From positions 124,001 through 188,000 of the forward strand of contig JBBPIG010000011.1 of the NCBI GenBank assembly GCA_038040445.1: DNA of 64,000 nucleotides, written 5' to 3'. The stretch is from Acidobacteriota bacterium (GTDB lineage Bacteria; Acidobacteriota; Blastocatellia; UBA7656). Below the pieces are notes generated by a model. It was not told where the DNA came from. It worked only from the letters and a program-made list of their open reading frames with translations, and searched no databases. How positions within the stretch are numbered: position 1 is the stretch's first letter; each line of letters begins with the position of its first letter. The position numbers were made by a program, and so were the translations under genes. Below are positions 4,929 through 56,122 of the stretch, one piece after another.

Positions 4929-5325
4929 GCTCACAACCGAGCGTTGGTGAGATTGGCCGTGACCGCTGTGTGTTACCGACTTTTTCAGCAGCCTGCTAGT
5001 GGAAAAGAGATGGCCATATTTCTCGAGCGCGACGCATCTCCCATTGAACCGCAACCACTCGAACCGGCACGATGCAAAAGGAACTGAATGAGGCAGCGGA
5101 GGGTGGATATCGGCTGTTGCCTCGAACGATGATCGCCAAAACACAGGCGATTATCGGCTCCGTGGAAATAGTAGTGATTTGGAGCGCCCGCCAGCAGCAC
5201 AAGAACGATATTAGTATAAGCTCTTAGCTGGTCAGAACGTCTCATCTATCAACCGAGCGGGAACTTCCCCAACAGGAAAGGTGTCTAATGAGCGATTCAA
5301 CTCTCTAGAAGCTAAAGGAAGAAGG
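4929..5325. other. Intergenic region before the ABC genes
   Basis: About 400 bases with no supportable gene; short open frames on the minus strand have no ribosome sites or recognisable motifs. It presumably contains the promoter of the ABC ATPase gene. Confidence 0.5.
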
Positions 5326-6207
5326 ATGCTCGGAATAAAGGAATTGAAAAAGACTTACCCGAGCGGGATTCAGGCGCTCAAAGGAATCACGCTCGACGTT
5401 CCTTCCGGGATGTTCGGGTTGCTCGGGCCAAATGGCGCCGGCAAGACCACGTTGATGAAGATAGTGGCGACTCTGCTCGAACCGGACTCCGGCACAGTTG
5501 AGATGAACGGCGTCGACTTGATCTCTCGCAAGGATAGAGCGCGTCAGATGCTTGGCTACCTGCCGCAAGAGTTTGGGCTTTACCCTACGCTAACAGCGGA
5601 GCAGACGCTCGATTACTTCGCGAAGCTGAAGGGCGTGTGGAAGAGAGAAGAGCGTCGCGCCTTGATCGGCGCTCTCCTCGAAAGAGTAAATCTGTCATCC
5701 GCTCGCAAGCAGAAGGTCGGAGAGTTTTCGGGAGGGATGCGACAGCGACTGGGAATCGCCCAAGCTCTAATCGGTGAACCGGAGCTGATTATTGTTGACG
5801 AACCCACAGCTGGATTAGACCCGGAGGAACGAGTTCGTTTTCACAACTTGCTTTCTGAAACCGCGGGTGAAGATACCGTAGTCATCCTCTCAACTCACAT
5901 TGTCTCCGACGTCTCGAACCTCTGCAGCCAGATGGCCATCATTCGACATGGCGAAATCCTCACGTCATGCACCCCGCGGCATGCTATCGACGGGCTCAAA
6001 GATTCCGTCTGGGAAGCAGCGGTGCCGCGCGAACACGTCTCGGCATTGAAGGCACGCTGCCAGGTAATCTCTTCGCAGATGTTGGGTGGAATGGCGCGCG
6101 TGAGGGTGATATCAAAGGGCGAGCGACCAGGCGAAGAGTTTAGTCCGGCAGCTCCGGCTCTCGAAGATTGCTATTTTGATTTGGTCAGTCAAACAAACGA
6201 TGTCTGA
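5326..6207 (+). CDS. ABC transporter ATP-binding protein
   Basis: 293 residues from the ATG at 5326, preceded by AAAGGAAGAAGG; a GTG at 5281 in frame adds 15 residues but lacks a ribosome site. Walker A GPNGAGKT is at 34-41, the signature FSGGMRQRLG follows, Walker B is LIIVDEPTAGLDP, and the H-loop is in STHIVSD. The C-terminal 70 residues form the extension seen in ABC-2 type export and gliding/antibiotic-resistance ATPases. It pairs with the permease 41 bases downstream. It would energise export or a mechanical membrane process from the cytoplasmic face; the cargo is unknown. Confidence 0.93.
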   Translation: MLGIKELKKTYPSGIQALKGITLDVPSGMFGLLGPNGAGKTTLMKIVATLLEPDSGTVEMNGVDLISRKDRARQMLGYLPQEFGLYPTLTAEQTLDYFAKLKGVWKREERRALIGALLERVNLSSARKQKVGEFSGGMRQRLGIAQALIGEPELIIVDEPTAGLDPEERVRFHNLLSETAGEDTVVILSTHIVSDVSNLCSQMAIIRHGEILTSCTPRHAIDGLKDSVWEAAVPREHVSALKARCQVISSQMLGGMARVRVISKGERPGEEFSPAAPALEDCYFDLVSQTNDV

Positions 6208-25994: not shown

Positions 25995-26030
25995 CCGTGG
26001 TCAGTGGTCGTAGTCCGTGGTCCGTAGCTC
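25995..26030. repeat. Heptamer palindrome family B, partial copy
   Basis: GTGGTCAGTGGTCGTAGTCC followed by GTGGTCCGTAG: a short run of the AGTCCGT-type heptamer seen in full at 34321, 41407 and 54131. Only one arm is present. Confidence 0.6.
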
Positions 26031-33986: not shown

Positions 33987-34313
33987 CTAGTTCGCAGCTT
34001 GCCTTGCTGCCTTGCACTCTTCGCACGGGCACAGATCTCGGAGCCGTTCCCACGTATATATGCCGTCGTCGTGCCGGTCGCTAAACAAGAACTTCACACC
34101 GTAGCGGCCTACGTGCTCGGCGCTCAGGACCGTCAAGTCTTCGGCAACCGTCCTCGGATCGAGTACGCGAAGACCGGTCACTTCGCTGACGCAGTTGGCG
34201 CACATGCATTCCGACCTCAGATACTTGATCGCGTAGATGCTCACATGACCGTCGTCCCATCGGACGGTGATCTCGTGCGGACCGGTCTTCTTTATCTCGA
34301 GCGGAGTTGGCAT
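33987..34313 (-). CDS. DUF971-domain protein
   Basis: 108 residues. It has the gamma-butyrobetaine-hydroxylase-like N-terminal (DUF971) pattern: WDDGHVSIYAIKYLRSECMC, then DGIYTWERLRDLCPC followed by EEC. The Cys-rich clusters (CMCANC and CPCEEC) suit metal or Fe-S binding. Single-domain members are often encoded near iron-sulfur assembly genes, but no such neighbours are seen here. It is not closely linked to the crotonase operon, as a repeat separates them. Confidence 0.85.
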   Translation of the reverse strand: MPTPLEIKKTGPHEITVRWDDGHVSIYAIKYLRSECMCANCVSEVTGLRVLDPRTVAEDLTVLSAEHVGRYGVKFLFSDRHDDGIYTWERLRDLCPCEECKAARQAAN

Positions 34314-34320
34314 AAGGGAC

Positions 34321-34431
34321 GTCAGTAGTCCGTAGTCCGTAGTCCGTGGTCCGTGGTCCGTGGTCAGCTAGACAGAGTACCCCAGGTTGGACCTCAACTG
34401 ACTACGGACCACGGACTACGGACTACTGACC
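34321..34431. repeat. Heptamer palindrome family B, copy 1
   Basis: The left arm is a run of AGTCCGT/GGTCCGT heptamers and the right arm is their reverse complement (ACGGACT/ACGGACC), with about 35 bases between. The arms are flanked by GTCAGTAG and CTACTGAC. It lies between the DUF971 gene and the crotonase. Confidence 0.9.
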
Positions 34432-34435
34432 CATT

Positions 34436-35215
34436 TCACTTGTGTTTCCATCGAGGAGGACGCTTGGCGATGAAAGCCTCAACGCCTTCTTGCGGGTCCT
34501 TGAAAGACATCAGCTCGTTAAGGTAGATATCCTCCGCGCGTTTGAGCGCCTCATCGAAACCGAGGCCCCACGTCTGAACCATCGCCCGACGCGCCATCTC
34601 CAGTCCGGGGACGCTCATCTGCCGAAACGCTCCGAGCAACTCCTCTGCTTTCGCCTCCAGAGCGTTTTCGGCGACGACGTGATTGACCAGGCCTAGCGAC
34701 TGCGCGGCTTCGGCAGTCAACAACTCGCCAGTCAATATCATCTCGCGCGCTTTCTTCTCACCGATCACCTTCGGCAAAAGGAAGGCGGCAACCGGCGGAA
34801 AGACGCCGAGTTTGATCTCGGGCTGACCGAACCGCGCGGAGCCACTGGCAATGACGATGTCGGCAAAGGCGGCAAGCTCGCACCCACCGCCCAGCGCTGC
34901 GCCTCCGACCAGCGCAATCACCGGCTTCGACACCGCGTTGAGCGAGCGAAAGATCGAATGAAAGCCGTCAAGCATCTGAAACACCGTTTCGGCCTTGTGC
35001 TCTTCGATCGAGACGCCGGCGCAAAAAGCCCCGCTTGCCTGCGATGCGGCAAACACTATCGCGCAGGTGTCGGGCGTCTGGGCGATGCGATTGATCGCGT
35101 CGACGATCTCCTTCATCATCGCAATCGTCAAAATGTTCAACGGCGGCCGCGCAAAGGTTATCCGCGCAACGCGGTCGGTCACTGCCACCTGAATGTCTCT
35201 GTAGTGTGCTGCCAT
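34436..35215 (-). CDS. Enoyl-CoA hydratase/isomerase family (crotonase)
   Basis: 259 residues, with GGAAG upstream. The crotonase motifs are present: ASGAFCAGVSIEEH (CoA site) and GGAALGGGCELAAFADIVIA. Both catalytic glutamates are kept (GGCEL and FGQPEI). The usual PGAGGT after QPEI is replaced by PPVAAF, a pattern I associate with dienoyl/cyclohexadiene-carbonyl-CoA hydratases, so that activity is a guess. It is the third gene of a minus-strand run and starts 17 bases after the cyclodeaminase. Confidence 0.88.
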   Translation of the reverse strand: MAAHYRDIQVAVTDRVARITFARPPLNILTIAMMKEIVDAINRIAQTPDTCAIVFAASQASGAFCAGVSIEEHKAETVFQMLDGFHSIFRSLNAVSKPVIALVGGAALGGGCELAAFADIVIASGSARFGQPEIKLGVFPPVAAFLLPKVIGEKKAREMILTGELLTAEAAQSLGLVNHVVAENALEAKAEELLGAFRQMSVPGLEMARRAMVQTWGLGFDEALKRAEDIYLNELMSFKDPQEGVEAFIAKRPPRWKHK

Positions 35216-41406: not shown

Positions 41407-41504
41407 AGTAGTCCGTGGTCCGTAGTCCGTAGTCCGTAGTTCTCGAGTTTGTCCACTGACCACGGACTACGGACTACGGACTACGGACTACGGACTACGG
41501 ACTT
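41407..41504. repeat. Heptamer palindrome family B, copy 2
   Basis: The left arm has four heptamers of (A/G)GTCCGT, and the right arm has about six of ACGGACT in tandem, with about 20 bases between. The right arm is longer than the left, as if heptamers expand by slippage. It is placed between two divergent genes. Confidence 0.92.
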
Positions 41505-53074: not shown

Positions 53075-54124
53075 TCATCCAAAGGTCACCATCAACTCGC
53101 GCCCGAAACTAAACTGGGGCCGGCGGCGCTGCTTCAAAGCCTTCGTTCCGGTCTGCGACAGTGCGGTCACCAGGATCGGCATCGCGATCGTCGGGTCGCA
53201 AAGCACGGACACGGTTTTCGCGTCCTTAGCGACGCGGCCCCACGTTTGAGCTTCTTCAAAGCTGCGCCCCGAAGTCGCGCTGCTTTCCGGAAGATCGAGC
53301 CCGATCTGCAAAGCGTACTTGTGACCTCGCATGGTCTGCTTGATGATCGAGGCGGTCACTTCGGTTTGGTGTACGAAACTCTTCGGCTGGCCGCCGCCGA
53401 ACAATACTACCGACGTGTTCACCGACCTGGCCATGATCTGCGCCGCCTCGACGACGTCCTGGATGATGTCAAACTGAAACGGGTTTTTGCGATTGACGCG
53501 GGACGTCGCTATTCCAACGGCGATGGCCGAGTCGGCGACGCCGGGGCAAAAGACCGGCACCTTAGCCTTGTATGCGGAAGTGAGTATGCCGTCCTCGGTC
53601 GCAATTTCCGCAAGCTCGCGGCCCAGCAGATGCAGAAACTCGCGCGTCGAATAAGGCCGCGAATGGTCCACGGTGTTCGCAAAGTTCCCCACCCACTCAT
53701 CTGCTTCGCGGTACTCGTGCTCGCTCGCCAGGGTGTCATAGAACCGGCCGACCTGGGCTTCTTGAAGCTCGTCGTCGGTGACGCCCGGAAGCGCTTGATA
53801 GTGATAGCGTCCCAGCGTCTCGTGCAGATCGTGGAAAAGGTTCGCGCCGGTCGACACGACTACGTCGACAAAATGATTCTTGATCAAATAAGAGATCAGC
53901 CGGCGCATTCCGGCTGCGACCAGCGCGCCGCTCAACCCCATCAAAACCGTCGAGTTGTCTTCCAGCATTTCCAGCCACAGGTTATGCGACTCGGCGAGGG
54001 CCCGCGCCTGAAAGCCCGCCCCTTCCATCTTCTGGAGAATGCCGGCCACTGATCGATCGCGATCGATCTGAATGGGGCGCGTGGGCGCCGTCAAATACTT
54101 TGAGCTCTTTTGCTTTCTCATCAT
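53075..54124 (-). CDS. Deoxyhypusine-synthase-like protein (probable polyamine enzyme)
   Basis: 349 residues. It has the deoxyhypusine synthase fold pattern: NSTVLMGLSGALVAAGMRR, VVSTGANLFHDLHE, VVLFGGGQPKSFVHQ and SATSGRSFEEAQTWGRVAKD. Bacteria lack eIF5A, and such proteins are thought to make homospermidine or related polyamines from putrescine/spermidine. The Lys of the SWGK motif that forms the enzyme-intermediate imine in human DHS is Arg here (WGR, read from the bases at 53236-53244). The arginine decarboxylase gene is directly upstream on the same strand, which supports a polyamine role. Confidence 0.88.
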   Translation of the reverse strand: MMRKQKSSKYLTAPTRPIQIDRDRSVAGILQKMEGAGFQARALAESHNLWLEMLEDNSTVLMGLSGALVAAGMRRLISYLIKNHFVDVVVSTGANLFHDLHETLGRYHYQALPGVTDDELQEAQVGRFYDTLASEHEYREADEWVGNFANTVDHSRPYSTREFLHLLGRELAEIATEDGILTSAYKAKVPVFCPGVADSAIAVGIATSRVNRKNPFQFDIIQDVVEAAQIMARSVNTSVVLFGGGQPKSFVHQTEVTASIIKQTMRGHKYALQIGLDLPESSATSGRSFEEAQTWGRVAKDAKTVSVLCDPTIAMPILVTALSQTGTKALKQRRRPQFSFGRELMVTFG

Positions 54125-54130
54125 CGCTGT

Positions 54131-54223
54131 TTAGTCCTTGGTCCGTAGTCCTTAGTCCGTAGTAGCCGCAAACGGGAATATTCTCATCCGCGCAACTGAC
54201 TACTGACTACGGACTACGGACAA
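54131..54223. repeat. Heptamer palindrome family B, copy 3
   Basis: The left arm TTAGTCCTTGGTCCGTAGTC and its continuation, with the right arm GACTACTGACTACGGACTAC, enclose about 35 bases. It lies in the gap between the two polyamine genes. Confidence 0.85.
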
Positions 54224-56122
54224 CTATTCGAGATATGTGTACCGATTGATGTCGGATTCATATTGCTTCATGAGCGAGCCGGCTTCTTCCTCGCTCAAGA
54301 ACCCGCCGGCGACGCGCGCGCTTATCATTCGCTGCAAGCTTTCCCACGCCTGGCCCTTGTCGTAGCGGGCTACCCTAAGCATGTCGCCGATGCGGCTTCC
54401 CTGCACGATCTTCTTGATGTGGTAGCGCCCATCGGTGTCGATGATCACGTGGGCTTCATTCGGGCGGCCGAACAGGTTGTGATTGCTGCCCATCACCTCT
54501 TGATAAGCCCCGACAAGAAAGATCGCGATGTAGTACGGGTCGCCGGTGAACGGGTGCAACTCGAGCACCTCTTTGACATCCTTCAAATCGACGAACTTGT
54601 CTATGTGGCCGTCCGAATCGCACGTTAGGTCCACGAACGTGGCGTAGTCGGTGGGTTGCTCATTAAGCCGATGGATCGGCATGATCGGGAAGAGTTGGTC
54701 GATCGCCCAGTGGTCAGGCAGCGAGCGAAAGACTGAGAAGTTGCACAGGTACTTCGATGCCAGGATCTTCTTCAAATCGTCGAACTCTTCTTCCTGAACT
54801 TTGGTCGTCTTAGCGAACTTCGATGCACGCGCGCACACTTCCCAGAACAGCACTTCGCCCTTCGCCCGATCCTCGAGACTGATCAGCCCGAGATTGAACT
54901 GCGTGTGCAGTTCGTCCTTGTGGTCGAGCGAGTCGTGATAGTACTCGCGATAGTTCTTCGCGTTTATGTCGTCGTAGAGCGCCTTCAGCTCGACAATCAC
55001 CTGGGGGTCGTCTTCGTCGACGCTGACCTCGGGCTGATCGTCGGCGAAGGTCTCTATCTCGTCGCGAATCGATGTGACGAACACCGCGTGATAAGCAGCC
55101 ATCACCCGCCCGCTTTCGGTCACCAGGTTCGGCTCCGGCACATTCTCGTCATCGCACACAGACTTGATGGTGTAGACGACGTCGTTGGCGAACTCTTGCG
55201 TCGTGTAATTCACCGACGACTCGAACGTGGTCTTCGATCCGTCGTAGTCGACGCCCATGCCGCCGCCTATGTCGAGGAACTCGACGTCGATATGCATCTG
55301 ACGAATTTTGGAATAGACCCTGGCGGCCTCTTTCATGGCAGCTTTGACGCGCTTGATGTCGGTGATCTGCGAGCCGATGTGAAAGTGCAGCAGCTTCAAC
55401 AGGTCGGTCATCTGGAACTCGCGCAGCAGGCGAATGCATTCGAGGATCTCCGAGGGCGTGAGCCCAAACTTCGCCGACTCGCCGCCCGAGGAAGCCCATT
55501 TGCCCGAGCCCTTTGAATAGAGCTTGGCGCGAATGCCAATGCTCGGCCGAATGCCGGTCTCTTGCGCGCGGCGGATGATCATCTTCAGCTCGTTCAGCTT
55601 TTCAACGACGATCACCACGCGCTTTCCGATTTGAACTCCGGTCAGCGCGAGGTTAATGAAAGCTTCATCCTTGAAACCGTTACAGATGAGCAGCGACTCG
55701 GGCACTTGTTCCAGCGACAGAGCCGCGTACAACTCGGCTTTGGAACCGCACTCGACGCCGAAGTTGTACTTCCCGCCCTCGCGTAGAAACTCCTCGACCA
55801 CCTCGCGACGGGGGTTGACCTTCATCGGAAATACGCCGAAGTGCCCGCCGGCATAGCTGAATTCGCGCGACGCATCCTGGAACGAGCGCTGAACTTTCTT
55901 GAGCTGGTTGGTGAGAATCTGTGGGAAGCGAAGCAGGATCGGGAGCTGAAGACGGCGCCCCTCAACGAGGTCGTCAATGAGTTCCTTGATATCGACGGAA
56001 CGGGTGTCGCCCTCGGCAGGGCGGACCGCAAGATGGCCCTTTCGGTTTACCTCAAAGTATCCTGCTCCCCAATTTTCCACACCATAGGTCTGAATGACCT
56101 CGTCCAGTGTGATGTTCTTCAT
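54224..56122 (-). CDS. speA: Biosynthetic arginine decarboxylase
   Basis: 632 residues, the usual length of SpeA (about 630-660). It has the PLP-binding lysine segment GVFPMKVNPRREVV near residue 100, a TIM barrel with HFHIGSQ and FLDIGGGMGVDYDG, and the C-terminal beta-domain with CDSDG. It converts arginine to agmatine and carbon dioxide, the first step from arginine to putrescine. AAGG lies seven bases before the ATG. It precedes the DHS-like gene by about 100 bases with a repeat between them. Confidence 0.96.
   Translation of the reverse strand: MKNITLDEVIQTYGVENWGAGYFEVNRKGHLAVRPAEGDTRSVDIKELIDDLVEGRRLQLPILLRFPQILTNQLKKVQRSFQDASREFSYAGGHFGVFPMKVNPRREVVEEFLREGGKYNFGVECGSKAELYAALSLEQVPESLLICNGFKDEAFINLALTGVQIGKRVVIVVEKLNELKMIIRRAQETGIRPSIGIRAKLYSKGSGKWASSGGESAKFGLTPSEILECIRLLREFQMTDLLKLLHFHIGSQITDIKRVKAAMKEAARVYSKIRQMHIDVEFLDIGGGMGVDYDGSKTTFESSVNYTTQEFANDVVYTIKSVCDDENVPEPNLVTESGRVMAAYHAVFVTSIRDEIETFADDQPEVSVDEDDPQVIVELKALYDDINAKNYREYYHDSLDHKDELHTQFNLGLISLEDRAKGEVLFWEVCARASKFAKTTKVQEEEFDDLKKILASKYLCNFSVFRSLPDHWAIDQLFPIMPIHRLNEQPTDYATFVDLTCDSDGHIDKFVDLKDVKEVLELHPFTGDPYYIAIFLVGAYQEVMGSNHNLFGRPNEAHVIIDTDGRYHIKKIVQGSRIGDMLRVARYDKGQAWESLQRMISARVAGGFLSEEEAGSLMKQYESDINRYTYLE

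Follow-up and report, generated by a model that had tools for sequence, protein, structure and literature searches.

Dispersed palindromes with tandem heptamer arms at operon junctions of a Blastocatellia genome

Precedents among bacterial repeats

The inverted GGGAATC pairs of Xanthomonas are the closest precedent for the palindromes analyzed here. Rehm et al. (2015) described degenerate GGGAATC heptamers in runs of 2 to 26 units, with about 180 runs dispersed throughout each genome, about 90% of them intergenic, and 70–75 in opposed pairs that are mostly intergenic and lie nearer to the preceding gene (PMC4692102). Tandem degenerate 7-nt units and opposed, mostly intergenic pairs are common to both systems. 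In Xanthomonas, however, a single G-quadruplex unit is used, only some of the runs are paired, and the mean distances are 28 nt to the gene before and 160 nt to the gene after (PMC4692102), whereas we observed about ten unit families, of which AGTCCGT lacks any run of three G, with most arrays paired and medians of 3 and 7 nt. Homology within spacer families and loss of the SD sequence, both seen here, are not reported for Xanthomonas. The cyanobacterial STRRs and the TAACTGA repeats of Beggiatoaceae are likewise intergenic tandem arrays of heptamers, and the TAACTGA runs end beside start codons (PMC4679880), but these are direct arrays that practically never form inverted pairs, while most of our elements have two opposed arms. 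The original prediction for this locus, made from the DNA letters, drew a fair contrast with the cyanobacterial STRRs but overlooked that inverted heptamer pairs had already been described in Xanthomonas (PMC4692102).

Like our elements, the REP, BIME and REPIN sequences of enterobacteria and pseudomonads are dispersed palindromes in the gaps between genes of operons; many lie no more than 15 nt from a stop codon, and they form transcribed hairpins. GTAG/CGTC REPs have been described together with TIR-associated tyrosine transposases, which are known from an acidobacterium as well (PMC3733652), and E. coli REPs near stop codons are said to stall ribosomes, according to work cited in PMC12306157. 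Our elements differ from REPs in that their arms are tandem heptamers in variable number and in that no REP-associated tyrosine transposase (RAYT) accompanies them; the 5′ GTAG/CGTC tag that REPs carry outside the stem is absent, GTAG being found only inside the repeated unit of one family. Eukaryotic foldback transposons also have long inverted repeats composed of short units in tandem, with unequal arms and a variable middle, but they are kilobase-sized, while the elements described here span tens of bp and no transposase was found with them.

Elements of the window and their wider class

The window, i.e. the whole stretch of DNA analyzed, covers 64,000 nt (bases 124001–188000 of contig 11) of a Blastocatellia genome of 6.75 Mb in 72 contigs, hereafter G000. 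Four palindromes had been predicted in it; three full ones lie where they were expected, while the fourth is a half element that forms no hairpin.

34320-34431, element 1, whole: 7+5 units, 28-nt spacer
34320..34368, plus strand, element 1 left arm: seven (A/G)GTC(C/A)GT units
34369..34396, no strand, element 1 spacer (loop), unique
34397..34431, minus strand, element 1 right arm: five units
34436..35215, minus strand, gene upstream of the element 1 junction: enoyl-CoA hydratase/isomerase (Pfam PF00378)
33987..34313, minus strand, gene downstream of the element 1 junction: GBBH-like_N domain protein (Pfam PF06155)
41410-41503, element 2, whole: 4+7 units, 17-nt spacer
41410..41437, plus strand, element 2 left arm: four units, in a divergent intergenic region
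41438..41454, no strand, element 2 spacer
41455..41503, minus strand, element 2 right arm: seven units
54133-54222, element 3, whole: 4+4 units, 34-nt spacer
54133..54160, plus strand, element 3 left arm: four units, two of the four AGTCCTT
54161..54194, no strand, element 3 spacer: 91% similarity to its counterpart in the related species G001
54195..54222, minus strand, element 3 right arm: four units
about 25997..26027, plus strand, half element: degenerate left arm alone

On the minus (sense) strand, the right arm of element 1 is the 5′ arm, 4 nt past the stop of the enoyl-CoA hydratase gene, and its left arm is the 3′ arm, 6 nt from the start of the DUF971/GBBH-like_N gene. Element 3 is arranged in the same way, with its right arm (sense 5′ arm) 1 nt past the stop of an arginine decarboxylase-like gene and its left arm (sense 3′ arm) 8 nt from the start codon of a deoxyhypusine synthase-like gene. 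The direct succession of these two genes (window 53075-56122) was observed here in a bacterium. RNA folding predicted hairpins of −49 to −70 kcal/mol for elements 1 to 3 (z = −7 to −9), and of −48 to −70 kcal/mol (z = −5.7 to −9.2) when two other elements were included. The half element, for which no right arm was found, gave no hairpin above chance (z = +0.2).

With at most one mismatch, GTCCGTRGTCCGT has 24 matches in the window against 0.12 in dinucleotide shuffles, an excess of about 200-fold. Over the 6.75 Mb of the genome this 13-mer was found 248 times and its reversed control once, so that copies exceed chance genome-wide, as the original prediction supposed. All other element counts were drawn from about 0.9 Mb of G000, in which some 50 places were examined and 60 clusters parsed, a few of these being single arrays or related units. 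About 60 elements follow the order (RGTCMGT)n, spacer, (reverse complement)n, and this polarity is fixed with hardly an exception. Arms contain 2 to 17 units, spacers are mostly 4–97 nt long, and AGCT...AGCT is frequent at the inner border of AGTCCGT elements. Heptamer arrays seem to break short-read assemblies, the contigs of a related MAG ending at or inside elements. G001 contigs C447 and C498 terminate inside one element, and a 17-unit arm adjoins a run of N (L167:8270-8540).

A scan of 0.81 Mb of G000 for tandem arrays of any kind having an inverted counterpart no more than 150 nt away returned 117 inverted pairs of period 7, against 0, 1, 1, 0 and 0 for periods 5, 6, 8, 9 and 10. AGTCCGT makes up about half of the 117 pairs and is one family within a larger class of heptamer-armed palindromes; about ten unit families occur in all, the others being GGGTTCA, GTGATGC, TTGAAAA, ATTTTCC, GATTGCC, GATCGAG, CAGAAGG, AAGGGCA and more, each of constant polarity. 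Seven merged elements, all of period 7, lie in the initial 100 kb of contig 1, a stretch not selected for elements, and together with the three strict ones of the window this suggests, by extrapolation, about 400 heptamer palindromes per genome. Genomes G005 and G004 have 4 and 1 per 100 kb, respectively, with other units, and the same scan found none in G003. Several palindromes with (GGGTTCA)n arms contain inner (GGTTTCT)n (L158:230-442, L158:2943-3078, L207:407-573, L206:3291-3406), and several copies of this family share a core resembling GTTACGAGACTGGACACC, which may face either way. Two ATTTTCC-family palindromes at unrelated sites (L200:12617-12704 and L228:5618-5730) have near-identical spacers. 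The spacers of elements in G002 and G004 often contain a second hairpin, GAAACTGGCTCCTGTAGCCGGTTTC (L180:8336-8463, L190:7883-8004, L191:13384-13505, L194:4458-4574).

Our phylum scan revealed a patchy distribution of AGTCCGT elements. G282, which belongs to another family within the phylum, has 272 matches of the heptamer 13-mer, mostly of the GGTCCGT type. In G152 the reversed control TGCCTGRTGCCTG has 110 matches, which suggests that another abundant heptamer family is present there. The occurrence of AGTCCGT in several phyla was set aside as proof of transfer, because many heptamer families exist, the collection scan asked for AGTCCGT, and G152 is rich in another heptamer. AGTCCGT palindromes are also carried by six stretches (L325-L330) on several viral-collection contigs of putative phage origin, and loci of Acidimicrobiia (e.g. 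L036, L042, L067) hold long AGTCCGT/AATCCGT arrays lacking an inverted partner, several of them at contig ends. A literature search, mostly outside subscription journals, found no report that describes palindromes of this heptamer type from Acidobacteriota, Chloroflexota or Planctomycetota.

Placement between stop and start codons

We analyzed the position of AGTCCGT elements relative to genes and starts called with a simple codon-usage caller, in G000 and in G001, a genome of the same genus with flanks about 75–80% identical. Between co-directed genes, 65 of 75 elements either overlap the upstream stop codon or begin no more than 15 nt from it, and 42 of the 75 combine this with an end no more than 15 nt from the next start, about 19 sites common to both species being counted twice in the 75. 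Uniform insertion in same-strand gaps predicts 7.1% near the stop and 0.8% near both ends, compared to 87% and 56% observed (binomial p below 1e-60). G000 by itself gives 41 of 48 near the stop and 24 of 48 near both stop and start. The median distances are 3 nt from the stop and 7 nt to the start, and the element itself supplies the stop codon in 26 of the 75 cases. As with REPs, the elements are extragenic, near stops and in operons (65/75). Other heptamer families also prefer the place after a stop codon; some elements are divergent, intragenic or distant from any start. AGTCCGT palindromes of a Thermomicrobiales MAG (Chloroflexota) lie at medians of 3 nt from the stop and 15 nt before the start, and those of Gemmataceae/Singulisphaera MAGs (Planctomycetota) at −2 and 6.5 nt, while the AGTCCGT arrays of Acidimicrobiia are single and lack stop-codon placement. 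The original prediction, sound but understated in its observation, had missed both this stop-to-start position and the multiplicity of unit families.

Element junctions of Blastocatellia are mostly SD-less: GGAG, GAGG or AGGA precedes the start at 3 of 36 of them, compared to 55 of 93 comparable short junctions lacking an element (p = 9e-8). Thermomicrobiales copies leave about 15 nt ahead of the start and several have an SD in that gap, which indicates that SD loss is not universal. Reading the junctions with the element looped out restored an SD in 7 of 36 cases against 5.3 in shuffles, and an SD bridged across the looped-out hairpin was dropped as a candidate because this is no enrichment over shuffles. 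The GGA of the 3′ arm was dropped as an SD as well, since the last unit showed no enrichment (34/45 vs 35/45).

These observations very probably describe a dispersed, REP-like, heptamer-armed palindrome residing at operon junctions. Given that a stop-to-start distance of about 20 nt nearly abolishes reinitiation (Huber et al., 2023; PMC10666635), an insert of 60–180 nt would be costly unless folded away. We propose that the element is a non-autonomous dispersed palindrome, its arms consisting of tandem degenerate R-GTC-M-GT heptamers and their reverse complement, and that the hairpin predicted by folding (−48 to −70 kcal/mol) would form at the junction. Folding would hide 60–180 nt, so that about 10 nt of unfolded path would separate stop from start, and a ribosome finishing the upstream gene would open the foot of the stem and reinitiate at the SD-less start beyond. 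Translation coupling would thereby be kept, and it is at the junction that an element would be tolerated or of use. For reinitiation, the hairpin probably holds the stop and the start near each other; the bridging mechanism as such, which draws on position, folding and the missing SD, is put forward tentatively. Taken as a whole, the reading of a dispersed REP-like element at stop–start junctions whose hairpin couples translation falls slightly short of being evenly balanced in our judgment. We consider it doubtful that heptamer-armed hairpins bridging a stop and an SD-less start, with reinitiation across a folded-out spacer of 60–180 nt, make up a previously undescribed kind of translational junction element recruited in at least three phyla (Acidobacteriota, Chloroflexota and Planctomycetota).

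Dispersal and competing explanations

The most serious competitor is that these are purely selfish or neutral REP- or MITE-like repeats that insert widely and survive only between operon genes, since copies in coding sequence or promoters are not tolerated, the hairpin having no role; this deserves real weight, although we find it somewhat improbable. Dispersal itself is supported. Seven elements at unrelated sites, in both orientations, have spacers falling into two clusters of 4 and 3 copies (scores 32–50, compared to at most 21 in shuffles), which implies that whole elements were copied. As in MITEs, inverted arms are present throughout and these homologous-spacer copies are dispersed. The spacers, originally predicted to be unique, are so within the window but not always elsewhere in the genome, and the idea of hairpins spreading between genes agrees with the strong predicted hairpins, about 60 copies, shared spacers and an intergenic placement far above chance. 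Copies inside genes and in a riboswitch also fit selfish spread. In-frame elements are read through in hyuA-like and glnE-like genes of both species (L173:7727-7805, L260:1039-1117, L156:8009-8095, L262:5769-5918), and a solved homologue of the hyuA-like protein lacks the element-bearing segment. Rickettsia palindromic elements (RPEs) are similarly in-frame palindromes in protein genes, but few of the copies described here are intragenic (3 loci in G000), and RPEs are not known to have tandem arms. In both species a cobalamin riboswitch holds an AGTCCGT element in its variable insertion (L207:8524-8754, L253:1935-2196). A second cobalamin riboswitch lies on L207 at 5268-5484.

The patchy distribution in the phylum and the many unit families equally suit a selfish origin, as does the relation between the arms: their variable positions agree at chance level in every register tried, which led us to reject maintained pairing and indicates that precise pairing is not the thing selected. 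Against this view, survival in non-coding DNA alone would place 7% of elements near a stop and 0.8% near both ends, far from the 87% and 56% observed, unless insertion is biased toward stop–start junctions, and five of the seven unit positions are kept across species while spacers drift (similarity mostly 0.55 between G000 and G001, barely above the random 0.44). Most comparable sites of the two genomes retain an element, a fraction that is inflated because G001 loci were chosen mostly for holding elements. Sites kept in both species include rpsJ-rplC and rpsC-rplP of the S10 ribosomal-protein operon (Pfam), a site ahead of pth and the arginine decarboxylase/deoxyhypusine synthase junction (window 54133). 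The L206:8746 slot is occupied by a different heptamer family in G001, at the L174:7134 site G001 has nothing but CACGGAC, and at window 34320 G001 contigs terminate on both sides; no clean empty site was found among the sites compared.

It is unlikely that the arms are arrays of binding sites, in which a DNA- or RNA-binding protein reads each RGTCMGT and the palindrome merely sets two opposed rows. The pattern of variation speaks for such a reader. Among 644 units, positions 2, 3, 4, 6 and 7 are fixed at 95–98%, A and G share position 1 (71/25%) and C and A share position 5 (74/24%), with T at position 5 in merely three units though C to T is the commonest expected mutation; units are independent of their neighbours and of the facing arm, and in other families, too, most variation falls on two or three set positions. 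However, no protein has emerged as a candidate, each of a dozen unit families would require its own reader, and the position-5 variation is absent from the AGTCCGT arrays of other phyla.

Still less probable is that local slippage and template switching build the palindromes afresh at each site, without dispersal. In many bacteria, heptamers outnumber all other long repeats (Mrazek, as cited in PMC4692102 and PMC4679880), and 22 of 32 arms differ in unit number between G000 and G001 while keeping the unit motif, in line with the original description of the hairpins as slippage-prone. Nevertheless, neighbouring units resemble each other no more than units picked at random from the full set (130 vs 126–135 expected), so there is no slippage signature and slippage alone did not make the arrays; together with the uncorrelated arms this also argues against template switching. 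The presence of the AGTCCGT unit at about 60 loci and the shared spacers are further difficulties.

We rejected mobilization as REP/REPIN elements by a RAYT, which now appears highly improbable, because the transposase genes carry their own, different REPs. GTAG does occur at every unit junction (GTAGTCC), seven Y1_Tnp matches are present in the genome, and stop-codon adjacency is known for E. coli REPs (PMC12306157), but two transposase genes own GGAGACTCCTGACGGAGTCC and CCCTCCTGACGGAGGG rather than heptamers, no AGTCCGT element or flanking heptamer palindrome was found in the inspected flanks of any Y1 gene, GTAG is missing from the GGGTTCA, GTGATGC and TTGAAAA families, and G006 has 18 Y1 matches yet no AGTCCGT arrays. 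The RAYT-like genes beside tandem copies of GGAGACTCCTGACGGAGTCC and CCCTCCTGACGGAGGG are located at contig ends (L228:10090-10294, L229:1-700). No transposase flanking the elements and no copying enzyme for them was found in the DNA examined. An autonomous element with heptamer arms was rejected, as the long-range inverted pairs enclose no recognized transposase-like candidate; so was the IS200-type gene that G005 has in the vicinity of two heptamer arrays, as these differ in unit and do not abut the gene. Transcription terminators or attenuators, suggested by strong predicted hairpins after stop codons, are the least credible explanation, given that the T run following the G+C-rich hairpin of an intrinsic terminator is absent after the stem in the listed flanks, that several copies lie within the S10 ribosomal-protein operon, and that element 3′ ends are 4–8 nt ahead of start codons.

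Even if the elements are purely selfish, the strict seven-nt period, the many families and the single architecture point to a common mechanism that generates or copies them. A real role at the junction would mean that operons can hold large intergenic inserts without loss of coupling, and natural arm-length variants would make the question of how a terminating ribosome reaches the next start testable.
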